This document shows positions 34,051-37,653 of a DNA stretch of 64,000 nt, piece after piece (positions within the stretch are counted from its first letter, which is position 1; every line of letters begins with the position of its first letter). The DNA comes from a virus. The DNA lies in IMG/VR virus record IMGVR_UViG_3300048694_000674, positions 1-64,000 of that record; one strand, given 5' to 3'. The translations under genes were made by a program, and so were the position numbers. The notes under the pieces were generated by a model. That model was not told the DNA's origin, made no database searches, and saw only the letters and a list, made by a program, of their open reading frames with translations.

Positions 34051-34356
34051 ATGTTCAAACGAGTATTGCTTATAGCATCATTACTGCTGCTTCCGTCAAC
34101 AGTATATGCTCAGACTTCTTGTGGCAAGACGGAAGACATTGAGGATGTGCTAAAAGCAACTGGTTATGAACCTTTGTTGAGATCGCTAAACTCGCCGACG
34201 AACCAAGTACTGCTTTGGTTCAATAAAGACAAAAGAGTAATAGCTGTATTGGCAGCTCCTCTTACTGTCGGTAAACCAACTGAAATTTGTTTTGTCGATA
34301 GACTGGTCGAGGTACAATTAAACCTTGACTTATTACAGGAATTAATGTATCATTAG
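34051..34356 (+). CDS. Small secreted protein
   Basis: 101 aa with a clear signal peptide (MFKRVLLIASLLLLPSTVYA|Q). The mature part (TSCGKTEDIEDVLKATGYEPLLRSLNSPTNQVLLWFNKDKRVIAVLAAPL) is a small alpha/beta domain with two Cys that could form a disulfide. Similar short exported proteins occur in T4-like marine phages. Predicted periplasmic; function unknown. The ribosome site AAAGGAGA precedes the ATG. Confidence 0.65.
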   Translation: MFKRVLLIASLLLLPSTVYAQTSCGKTEDIEDVLKATGYEPLLRSLNSPTNQVLLWFNKDKRVIAVLAAPLTVGKPTEICFVDRLVEVQLNLDLLQELMYH

Positions 34357-34374
34357 AATATAGGATATCGTCTT

Positions 34375-34832
34375 CACCACAAGCACCACAGACAGAGTGA
34401 CACGTAAGATGACTGTGCATCTGAGGGTCGGGATTCTTTGCCTTGGCAACACCGAGGGTGCTTTTGATGGAGACGAATAAATAAATTGCTGAGGTCGTTG
34501 AGGCGTTCAGAATAGACGTTTCGGACGGGAGGGCAGTACTCCCCCAGTCCACCATAGATACACTGGTCGTTGGGTGCAACAGTCCTCCTATTATAAAGAG
34601 GGTATGGCAGAAGAGACTAGTATATAACTGTTAGCACTGGGCAAAGCGGTGTCTCACAGTGTATCTTTGATGGGCTGGAAATCAGGTTCGACGGGATGTA
34701 GTAAAGGTGCGAAGAGACCAAAAGCAACGTTCAGATGCAAACGATAATGCACCTATCACTCTGGCACTAGCTGCCTGAGTATGAGCTTCGGGGCTGAGCT
34801 TGGAAACAGAATCAGCCCCACAAATTCCATTT
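34375..34832 (+). ncRNA. ssrA: Circularly permuted (two-piece) tmRNA
   Basis: The acceptor piece comes first: TTTCGGAC, T-arm GGGAG-GGCAGTA-CTCCC, then CCAGTCC-A-CCA ending at 34554. After about 117 bases, the coding piece begins at 34672 with GGGCTGG, which pairs with CCAGTCC over seven positions (one G-U), followed by the tmRNA hallmark GGTTCGACGGGA. The tag frame at 34737-34778 reads ANDNAPITLALAA-stop, ending in the degradation signal ALAA. A strong hairpin (GGGGCTGA...TCAGCCCC, 34793-34822) closes the coding piece. Acceptor-before-coding order is the permuted form known from alphaproteobacteria and some cyanobacteria. tmRNA rescues stalled ribosomes with SmpB, which would have to come from the host. 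The outer ends are approximate. Confidence 0.88.
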
Positions 34833-34851
34833 ACAACAAGGAGTATATAAT

Positions 34852-35067
34852 ATGAGCGCAGCATTTGATGAATTGTTAGTAAAGTATATCGACTTGAAGA
34901 ACAAGTATGATAATCTCTCTAAGAGTCTTGGTGGCAGCACTATCTCGCTATCAGGAGCTCCCCAAACTTTCTTAACAGAACCAGCACCAGCTCCATATGT
35001 TAAGTCAGGTTATACGGTCTCAGTTAATGCCATTTCTACTGACACTGTTAAGTTACTCGATAGTTAA
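34852..35067 (+). CDS. Hypothetical 71-aa protein
   Basis: A coiled-coil-like start (MSAAFDELLVKYIDLKNKYD, NLSKSL) followed by a Ser/Pro-rich tail (LSGAPQTFLTEPAPAPYVKSGYTVSV). The ribosome site AAGGAG lies 10 bases before the ATG. It sits between the tmRNA and a tRNA. The composition suggests a small structural or scaffold-like peptide, not a known family. Confidence 0.55.
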   Translation: MSAAFDELLVKYIDLKNKYDNLSKSLGGSTISLSGAPQTFLTEPAPAPYVKSGYTVSVNAISTDTVKLLDS

Positions 35068-35075
35068 TCCATATT

Positions 35076-35152
35076 GGTCTCTTAGCTCAGTTGGATAGAG
35101 CAACAGCCTTCTAAGCTGTGGGTCATTGGTTCGAGTCCAATAGAGATCGCCA
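35076..35152 (+). tRNA. tRNA-Arg (anticodon UCU)
   Basis: 77 nt with encoded CCA. Acceptor GGTCTCT/AGAGATC (one G-T pair), D-stem GCTC/GAGC, anticodon loop CTTCTAA (TCT) on ACAGC/GCTGT, T-arm ATTGG-TTCGAGT-CCAAT, discriminator G. It reads AGA, a codon common in this AT-rich phage. Confidence 0.95.
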
Positions 35153-35167: not shown

Positions 35168-35377
35168 ATGCAAACGACGAAAATAATCCGCGATATACCT
35201 TTGGGTGTATTGATGTTAGTGGTGTCCCAGTTCTTCATTTATGGAGCATTGTACCTATCGAAGTTCCCAAATGTATTCGAATTTCTTGGTATTATGTTTT
35301 GTGTATGGGCGACTGGATTTTTGACTGACTTAGGCATCCGAGTTATTAAAGGAATTGAAGTTGCTGAATCTGAGTAA
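35168..35377 (+). CDS. Small two-span membrane protein
   Basis: 69 aa: a short basic N-terminus, then spans IPLGVLMLVVSQFFIYGALYL and FLGIMFCVWATGFLTDLGI, and an acidic tail. The ribosome site CGGAG lies upstream. It overlaps the gp33-like gene at its end. Function unknown; inner-membrane location predicted. Confidence 0.6.
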   Translation: MQTTKIIRDIPLGVLMLVVSQFFIYGALYLSKFPNVFEFLGIMFCVWATGFLTDLGIRVIKGIEVAESE

Positions 35378-35585
35378 TACATTTTTTGTACAAGAAATAG
35401 AAACATTATGCCAAACAAAGAGTATCGAATATATTGATGCGGTTGTTTATTGGTGCGAAAAGAATAATGTGGAGGTAGAATATGCTGCCGCATTGATCAA
35501 AAAAGACCCAGTATTTAAATCGAAGATAGAGGTGGAAGCTGAAAATCTCAATATCCTGAAAAAGGGAGCTCGATTGCCCGTATAA
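35361..35585 (+). CDS. gp33: Late transcription coactivator, gp33-like
   Basis: 74 aa with a TTG start (35361, spaced from AAAGGA; 35355 is the alternative); the frame contains no ATG. FVQEIETLCQTKSIEYIDAVVYWCEKNNVEVEYAAALI...KSKIEVEAENLNILKKGARLPV resembles the gp33 family of T4-like marine phages in size, helical pattern and the C-terminal L-N-x-L-K-K-x-x-x-L-P end. gp33 links the sliding clamp and host RNA polymerase at late promoters. Its position before gp59 and gp32 matches T4 order, which supports the call. Confidence 0.7.
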   Translation: MLNLSNTFFVQEIETLCQTKSIEYIDAVVYWCEKNNVEVEYAAALIKKDPVFKSKIEVEAENLNILKKGARLPV

Positions 35586-35588: not shown

Positions 35589-35615
35589 ATATTGGATACA
35601 ACATGGGAGATCCAA

Positions 35616-36068
35616 ATGCTATTACGAACAGCAGGTAAACCCAAAAGAGTTCCAATAAGTTTATGTAAGCAAGCCGTAAAGTGGTATGGTAAGTATCTGC
35701 TAGGCAGACTCTACCATAATATAGAGTTGAAGCTAGAGTTTGATAAGAAATCTCTAGGTCCGTATGTATATGGATGCTGTGATTGGAATGACGATAATCA
35801 CAAGGCTAGAAGCTTCACAATAACCGTTGATCCGAATCTCGGTAAAAGAAACATGCTACTCGTTATTGCCCACGAGATGGTTCATGTTAAACAATATGCC
35901 AAAGGCGAAATGAAAGACTATATCAAAATGGATAGAGTCAAATGGAAGGGTAAAGTTTATAATGAATCAATTATAGATTACTGGGAACATCCATGGGAGA
36001 TAGAGGCTCATGGTCGAGAAAAAGGTTTATACTATAAATTTCTTGAGAACGTTAAACAGAACCATTAA
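35616..36068 (+). CDS. SprT-like/HExxH putative metalloprotease
   Basis: 150 aa from ATG 35616, chosen because GGGAGA and a late promoter lie just upstream; the frame is open a little further. MLLVIAHEMVHVKQYAKGE is a zinc HExxH motif, and HPWEIEAHGREKGLYYKF supplies a downstream Glu/His likely to complete the site. The layout (SKCKQAVKWYGKYLL-like helix, TITVDPNLG strand, then HExxH) resembles small SprT/WSS1-like peptidases encoded by many phages. Substrate unknown. Inserted between gp33 and gp59 relative to T4. Confidence 0.75.
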   Translation: MLLRTAGKPKRVPISLCKQAVKWYGKYLLGRLYHNIELKLEFDKKSLGPYVYGCCDWNDDNHKARSFTITVDPNLGKRNMLLVIAHEMVHVKQYAKGEMKDYIKMDRVKWKGKVYNESIIDYWEHPWEIEAHGREKGLYYKFLENVKQNH

Positions 36069-36074
36069 TTTATT

Positions 36075-36671
36075 ATGAGTGATGATACAATGTCTGCATT
36101 TGAATGTTATAAAGAGTATATAGCTCTAAAGAACCATTTCACAAAACCATCATATAGCTACCACAAGTATAACGGTAAAACAAAACTATCTTTTCAATCT
36201 TTCGAATCAAGAAAAGATAAGATATACTTTATGAAGGTAGCCAAGCATCCTGATCCAGTCAACTACATCTTATCTAACCTGTTGGAGAATGATAAGCTAT
36301 GGATTAAGGATATCGCTTATAGTGATAGCGCCAAGCTTGTTTATCAGGATTGGCAAAAGCGTCAGCAATCGCTGATGTATATGTTTTCACAAGAATTATC
36401 TAAACTTGCCAATGACTTTGATTCGAATTTCATTAGCGAGGATAACAGCCATCCATATGTAATCAAGTTATTCCTCAGAAAAGAGATTAGCTTGGAGACA
36501 TTGGTAATGCTTGTTGATCTAGTCAAGTGCGTAAAGACTTGGAAAAACAAGTATGAATACGACCCGATTGTTGATGAGCTCTTAACTAAAATTGTGAAGT
36601 ATCGTCCTTTCCTCCAATATGATCATGATAAAGTTAAGAAAACAGTCATTGACAATTTCAGCAATCGGTAG
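36075..36671 (+). CDS. gp59: Helicase loader, gp59-like
   Basis: 198 aa. AFECYKEYIALKNHFTKPSYSYHKYNGKTKLSFQSFESRKDKIYFMKVAKH is the N-terminal HMG-like part of gp59 in T4-like marine phages (xxCYKxYLxLKxHF...YFKYxGK). The C-terminal helical part follows (SLETLVMLVDLVKCVKTWKNKYEYDPIVDELLTKIVKYRPFL). gp59 loads the gp41 helicase onto gp32-coated forks. Directly upstream of gp32, as in T4; the gp32 promoter lies in its last codons. Confidence 0.88.
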   Translation: MSDDTMSAFECYKEYIALKNHFTKPSYSYHKYNGKTKLSFQSFESRKDKIYFMKVAKHPDPVNYILSNLLENDKLWIKDIAYSDSAKLVYQDWQKRQQSLMYMFSQELSKLANDFDSNFISEDNSHPYVIKLFLRKEISLETLVMLVDLVKCVKTWKNKYEYDPIVDELLTKIVKYRPFLQYDHDKVKKTVIDNFSNR

Positions 36672-36744: not shown

Positions 36745-37653
36745 ATGGTAGATTTCGCAAAACTTAAAGCTATGTCTGGTAAGAAGTCACTCGAATCTCT
36801 TACTGCCGAACTTAATAAGATCAATGGTAATCAGAACGATAAGTCAAAGGATGATCGCTTCTGGTATCCTAATGTGGATAAAGCTGGCAATGGTTACGCT
36901 GTTATTCGCTTCCTCCCCGCACCAAATGAAGAAGATGTTCCGTTCATTCGCATGTTCGAACATGGTTTCAAAGGTCCATCGGGTTCATGGTATATTGAAA
37001 ACTCTCTCACAACTATCGGTAAGCAGGATCCTGTTGGCGAGTTAAACACTCAGCTCTGGAATTCTGGTCTTGAATCCGATAAGGAAGTTGCTCGTAAGCA
37101 AAAGCGTAAGCTTCACTTCGTCAGCAATATCTATGTTGTGACTGATCAACAAAATCCTGAGAATGAAGGTAAAGTCTTTCTGTTCAAGTATGGCAAGAAG
37201 GTATTCGATAAGTTGAATGAGGCTATGAATCCTCAGTTTGCTGATGAAGATCCTATGAATCCATTCGATCTTTGGTCTGGTGCTAACTTCAAGTTGAAGA
37301 TTCGCAACGTCGAAGGCTATCGTAACTATGATAAGTCTGAGTTCGCTGCAGCTGGTCCATTGTTCAATGATGATGAGGAAATGGAAGCAGTTTGGAAGAA
37401 GTGCCATTCACTTCAAGCATTCCTAGCTCCTTCTAACTTCAAGTCCTATGATGAATTGAAGGCTCGCTTGAATAAGGTTCTTGGTCTTGATGGTTCAACT
37501 CGCGCTGTTGCTAAGGTTGTTGATGAAGAACTTCCTTGGCAAAACGAAGAAGCTCCTGCTCCTGCATTGAAGGCAAAGGCAGCTCCGAAGTTTGACGAGG
37601 ATGAAGAAGAGGATGAAGATATGCTCCTCTTTGCCAAGATTGCTAATGGCTAA
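36745..37653 (+). CDS. gp32: Single-stranded DNA-binding protein gp32
   Basis: 302 aa, the normal size for the family. The N-terminal basic segment (MVDFAKLKAMSGKKSLESLT) drives cooperativity. The OB-fold core runs from about 38 to 235 (DRFWYPNVDKAGNGYAVIRFLPAPN, FEHGFKGPSGSWYIENS, KLHFVSNIYVVTDQQNPENEGKVFLFKYGKKVFDKL, NFKLKIRNVEGYRNYDKSEF). The tail is acidic (DEDEEEDEDMLLF). The Cys/His zinc cluster of T4 gp32 is missing; only one Cys (KKCH) remains. Strong promoter upstream and a terminator after the stop. Confidence 0.95.
   Translation: MVDFAKLKAMSGKKSLESLTAELNKINGNQNDKSKDDRFWYPNVDKAGNGYAVIRFLPAPNEEDVPFIRMFEHGFKGPSGSWYIENSLTTIGKQDPVGELNTQLWNSGLESDKEVARKQKRKLHFVSNIYVVTDQQNPENEGKVFLFKYGKKVFDKLNEAMNPQFADEDPMNPFDLWSGANFKLKIRNVEGYRNYDKSEFAAAGPLFNDDEEMEAVWKKCHSLQAFLAPSNFKSYDELKARLNKVLGLDGSTRAVAKVVDEELPWQNEEAPAPALKAKAAPKFDEDEEEDEDMLLFAKIANG

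Follow-up and report, generated by a model that had tools for sequence, protein, structure and literature searches.

Does a T4-like phage carry a working two-piece tmRNA gene and, if so, whose partners does the RNA work with? The window analyzed here, 64,000 nucleotides long, opens a virus record of 141,393 bases, and a preliminary description had placed a circularly permuted tmRNA with its own tag at 34375-34832. We find, from sequence comparison, that this T4-like phage very likely has a working tmRNA gene of circularly permuted layout, whose tagging would depend on the host. It is not a new kind of gene, as two-piece tmRNAs are known from phage Melnitz (2022) and from dozens of other phages. 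Because such genes have already been published and are present in at least five phage isolate records in our RF04321 search, a two-piece tmRNA in a phage is less remarkable than was first supposed. Two features of the locus, the lack of room for pseudoknot PK1 and a duplicated acceptor junction, are both unreported in the literature that could be searched.

Identification and anatomy of the gene

With cmscan, the permuted model RF04321 (tmRNA_permuted; curated cut-off 47 bits) matches 34493-34778 at 81.5 bits (E 4.9e-14). The alphaproteobacterial model RF01849 (alpha_tmRNA; curated cut-off 50 bits), proposed earlier as a check, matches 34458-34822 at 71 bits (E 2.4e-17) over model positions 1-355 with gaps, as against 195-313 bits for most of the bacterial matches listed. 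Both scores lie above their cut-offs and the neighboring genes are T4-like, in agreement with the original assignment. ARAGORN, the other check proposed, missed the gene and listed only three tRNAs, and the case suggests that phage tmRNAs are undercounted in ARAGORN-based surveys. A DNA search against annotated phages found nothing, and the Rfam models for miRNAs and snoRNAs that match in the tmRNA region score below their cut-offs. The gene proper occupies about 34488-34822 (+ strand); the span first delimited contains it, but 34375-34487 is mostly a separate hairpin (34368-34476) and a promoter-like box.

The acceptor piece (34488-34554, +) comes first, its probable 5' end being placed by the conserved GCTGAGG that lies 4-5 nt after ATAAATA in relatives. 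It comprises the 3' strands of P2 (34493-34496 and 34516-34522, +), a T-arm with a perfect stem (GGGAG-GGCAGTA-CTCCC, 34527-34543, +) and the acceptor 3' strand CCAGTCC (34544-34550, +), followed by A and then by CCA at 34552-34554. The 117-nt IVS (34555-34671, +) is predicted, from an inverted repeat and from its size and conserved ends in relatives, to be excised at maturation; its ends, GATACACTG and CAGTGTATC, pair and so lengthen the acceptor stem. The coding piece (34672-34822, +, its 3' end a prediction) opens with GGGCTGG (34672-34678), which pairs with CCAGTCC over seven bases, as had been noted, with a G.U at position 3. It continues with the D-region GGTTCGAC, the 5' strands of P2 (34693-34699 and 34716-34719, +), the tag frame (34737-34778, +) and a 3' H-type pseudoknot (34783-34819, +), the latter with a main stem GGGGCTGA/TCAGCCCC and a second stem GAGC/GCTT (or AGCT/AGCT). 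The tag frame runs from the Ala resume codon, GCA at 34737, to TGA and reads ANDNAPITLALAA-stop, with the ALAA ending described before.

The RNA resembles alphaproteobacterial tmRNA (RF01849, Caulobacter type) in its permuted order, its GGCRGTA T-loop (GGCAGTA or GGCGGTA is the usual form among the alphaproteobacteria parsed), its G3.U70, its ANDN tag start and the AACAGAA of its 3' structure. G3.U70 is the alanine identity pair. Unlike alphaproteobacterial tmRNA, the window gene has an IVS of 117 nt, compared with a bacterial median of 36, and the D-region GGTTCGAC, compared with GGATCGAC in nearly all parseable bacteria. The D-region difference is not clade-wide, three phage relatives carrying GGATCGAC.

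Pairing was counted in 12 phage loci from viral contigs and isolates. Of 84 acceptor-stem cells, 83 are paired, and all 12 loci have G3.U70; the T-stem (60/60), inner P2 (82/84) and outer P2 (48/48) are similarly paired. A lack of pairing support for the pseudoknots had been named, together with a lack of processed RNAs, as grounds for rejecting the tmRNA; the main stem of the 3' pseudoknot is paired in 84 of 84 cells and all 7 pairs show two-sided changes. The pairs of the second stem were picked as the best for each sequence, so this helix is inflated and provides softer evidence. At acceptor pairs 4-6 the window is an outlier, with C-G, T-A and G-C in place of the usual G-C, G-C and C-G, and is still paired. 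Given compensatory pairing of this strength, the gene is very probably a working one.

Leader hairpin and promoter region

Upstream of the gene lies an inverted repeat that looks like a second acceptor junction (34368-34476, +). It is laid out as CGTCTTC-A-CCA-CAAGCACC ... GGTGCTTTTGAT-GGAGACG, with all seven acceptor-like pairs present, but it is devoid of a T-arm, D-region and tag, and A3-U70 replaces G3.U70. When the acceptor/CCA/IVS junction is modeled as a profile built from the other phages, excluding the window, the window's true junction scores best (46.0 bits) and the leader hairpin comes second (37.1 bits); in 20 random genomes the highest score is 20.2 bits. The hairpin is found in one phage species only, represented also by a second contig (L015) that is 99.99% identical. 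Nearly all relatives have, at the position of the hairpin, TTGACA or a near match, then 17 nt, then a -10 element that overlaps ATAAATA. The window keeps a T4-late-promoter-like box, AATAAATA (34476-34483, +), identified by comparison of upstream regions, which lies 4 nt before GCTGAGG at the same spacing as in relatives. The TTGACA -35 is missing, as it is in one relative (L248), and expression could therefore be weaker than in relatives. T4 late promoters are expected on the gene strand, just before genes. Across the genome, ATAAATA-type boxes are mostly on the + strand, as are most genes, and are often found just ahead of genes.

We consider the leader hairpin most likely to be what is left of a second tmRNA junction, one that arrived by duplication or recombination. 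An alternative that concerns the hairpin alone, and is compatible with a functional tmRNA, is that it belongs to the gene, as a second processing junction that would set the 5' end of the acceptor piece on upstream transcripts and so replace the gene's own lost promoter. The retention of CCA, TTTGATGG and the seven acceptor-like pairs where relatives have their TTGACA -35 speaks for this possibility, but the hairpin lacks a T-arm that RNase P or RNase Z could recognize, has lost G3.U70 and is known from a single phage species, and we regard the idea as unlikely. Slightly less likely again is that the hairpin is a working tmRNA-type junction, cut by the same enzymes that would excise the IVS. 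Were this the case, the upstream mRNA would end in ...CGTCTTCACCA, the acceptor piece would start at GGAGACG and tmRNA output would be tied to upstream transcription. To our knowledge no other precursor carries two permuted acceptor junctions, and in this one they would go with a tmRNA that naturally has no PK1. The duplicated junction is a testable case for the rearrangement or processing of a permuted RNA gene.

Pattern searches for further leader junctions gave several candidates that we rejected. An exact 18-mer of the hairpin in contig L048 is a chance match inside an apparently protein-coding stretch. Nine pattern matches in genome contigs include no alphaproteobacterial tmRNA; one, in L055 (Aquificaceae), is tmRNA-like and the others that were read are apparent chance matches. 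A stricter junction pattern gave zero matches. The pattern GATGG...TGAGGTCGTTGAG picked out two tmRNA loci among 81 checkable matches and, since GATGG falls in the promoter region in both, these searches did not turn up a leader junction in any further phage. As a terminator, the hairpin is at best a weak match.

A tmRNA without PK1

The 5' end of the coding piece lies 65 nt from the resume codon in the window and 63-66 nt from it in 15 phage loci, a set that includes three loci (L187, L230 and L248) found by a pattern that does not involve this stretch. The corresponding distance is 83-91 nt in 55 alphaproteobacteria, counted strictly on unambiguous tag starts. With only 63-66 nt available ahead of the resume codon, PK1 does not fit. 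In all 12 phage loci tried, a simple placement search could not fit an H-type pseudoknot into the stretch that separates P2 from the tag, whereas the same search could place one in 21 of 30 bacteria, although few of these exceed shuffled sequences and they are individually weak.

The absence of PK1, otherwise almost universal and present in nearly all tmRNAs of a 2005 survey (PMC1168896), is a point against a functional tmRNA. In E. coli, however, tagging is still efficient when single-stranded RNA takes the place of PK1 (PMC4236655), which indicates that a PK1-less tmRNA can work. A phage clade with a two-piece tmRNA without PK1 is a natural counterpart to this dispensability in E. coli (PMC4236655). 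At about 218 nt in total, the window RNA also falls short of 250 nt, the smallest size that the 2005 survey gave for a tmRNA with a tag (PMC1168896).

Tag, host dependence and proposed working

The tags of relatives keep the ANDN start and the LAA end, and other phage tags read ANDNAPVAMALAA, ANDNAPISYALAA, ANDNAPLVMALAA and ANDNAPIENRLAA. A tag of the form ANDNAP..LAA, a pattern that matches the window, was found in none of 385 sampled alphaproteobacterial genomes. Set against the sampled alphaproteobacteria, the tag looks phage-lineage-specific. This bears on the earlier suggestion of a possibly altered tag, but the LAA end is ordinary. The suggestion that the RNA points to the host lineage holds only in part: the RNA is indeed of alphaproteobacterial type, but so is that of Melnitz, a T4-like marine phage with a two-piece tmRNA that infects a methylotroph outside Alphaproteobacteria (PMC9004378). 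Since type and host disagree in Melnitz, tmRNA type is no reliable host marker.

SmpB (PF01668) was not found anywhere in the 141,393 bases of the record, which may be incomplete, in a search whose controls were positive in 10 of 14 genomes. The phage RNA therefore most likely relies on the host for SmpB, AlaRS and proteases, and the proposal that the phage takes over ribosome rescue is not borne out, a host partner being needed.

We propose the following sequence of events, in which all steps after folding are modeled on established tmRNA biology. Folding of the precursor would bring the acceptor strands into pairing, and host tRNA-processing enzymes would then excise the 117-nt IVS to leave two RNAs, one of about 67 nt and one of about 151 nt, that stay joined through the acceptor stem and P2. 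Host AlaRS would charge the RNA with alanine by way of G3.U70, and host SmpB and EF-Tu would carry it to ribosomes stuck on broken mRNAs. There the ribosome would switch to GCA at 34737, append (A)ANDNAPITLALAA and release a product destined for host proteases. Judging from the ATAAATA promoter box and from read-through, expression is probably late, and the benefit to the phage may be that ribosomes are kept free while nucleases fragment mRNA.

The absence of SmpB from the phage record would also fit an inhibitor or decoy, a phage RNA that would occupy host SmpB or the ribosome and so shut down trans-translation in the host, as has been proposed for the tag-less tmRNA of mycobacteriophage DS6A. 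Phage RNAs that possibly titrate SmpB are known for the form that consists of the tRNA-like domain only (PMC4131195, PMC11915505). That form has no tag frame, however, and the window's is intact. The window and 14 relatives alike have kept an undamaged tag frame, resume context, stop and LAA end, none of which a decoy would need, and we consider this explanation very improbable.

Phage context and related loci

The T4-like genes in the window include those for baseplate wedge proteins, gp59, gp32 and a gp33-like coactivator, and the baseplate proteins have relatives at 31-38% identity in DLP_6, Cr30, phiM12, HTVC008M, Mosig and Melnitz. The tmRNA is followed by a 71-aa ORF, tRNA-Arg(TCT) (35076-35152, +), a 69-aa ORF, the gp33-like late-transcription coactivator (35355-35585, +), an HExxH protein, gp59 (at 36075) and gp32 (at 36745). 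The HExxH protein (158 aa, 35592-36068; AHEMVHVKQ) is a putative zinc metallopeptidase that also adjoins gp33 in three relatives, at 52-72% identity.

SsrA lies upstream of gp33 and gp59 in Melnitz and Mosig as well, and this shared place suggests that the tmRNA is probably an old resident rather than a recent capture. In a quick tree with weak support, the phage tmRNA sequences group together, apart from bacteria. That the gene is instead a functionless passenger, a recent host gene fragment or a decaying leftover of, for example, an integration site, is least probable of all: tmRNA genes are common integration sites and the upstream junction-like hairpin resembles a leftover, but both pieces are complete, two-sided changes preserve pairing across divergent phages, the place next to gp33 is common to Melnitz and Mosig, and the tmRNA core is 84% identical to the nearest phage, as against 68% to the nearest bacterium among those compared.

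Close counterparts of the window gene are those of Melnitz and the Pelagibacter phage Mosig, which it resembles in being T4-like, permuted, of alphaproteobacterial type, upstream of gp33/gp59 and equipped with an intact degradation tag (PMC9004378). The CCACCA...TGATGG junction of Melnitz is also conserved. In the Methylophilales phage Melnitz, more sequence separates the 5' end from the resume codon than the 65 nt of the window, and its authors describe a glutamine riboswitch downstream of the gene (PMC9004378); the glnA RNA motif gave no match at E<=5 in 34300-34900 and none above cut-off in the window. ARAGORN had suggested 53 two-piece phage tmRNAs, 50 of them from marine or aquatic samples (PMC9004378), and Nawrocki et al. 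listed 79 bacteriophage tmRNAs and built RF04321 (PMC11915505). Phage-encoded tmRNAs are likewise found in the mycobacteriophages Bxz1, Cali and Wildcat and in Bacillus phage G (PMC4131195); the window gene differs from these in being permuted and of another lineage.

In contrast to the permuted genes below, the tmRNAs of Bxz1, Cali, Wildcat and phage G are one-piece. Our searches turned up several other observations on phage loci. RF04321 finds permuted tmRNAs in HTVC008M (NC_020484.1, 145161-145370), DLP_6 (KU682439.2, 102838-103059) and RHph_I1_18 (MN988519.1, 15520-15713), and the gene is unannotated in the HTVC008M and DLP_6 stretches viewed. Over its full length the IVS is 93% identical between L002 and L005 and 89% identical between L009 and L010, though the tags differ, which suggests either exchange of IVS segments or constraint on an RNA that would be discarded. 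In Melnitz (MZ577097.1; L027, 1584-1748), a 54-codon ORF (MFKWLSKTRLVVITRDYF...) begins in the tmRNA IVS, behind a GGAG that resembles a ribosome-binding site, and continues into the coding piece. It would be unusual for an IVS to encode protein. Another 141-kb phage record (G014, 65444-65626; L050) matches the permuted model at 57.8 bits, with a D-region GGTTTCGAC, and belongs to a different lineage.
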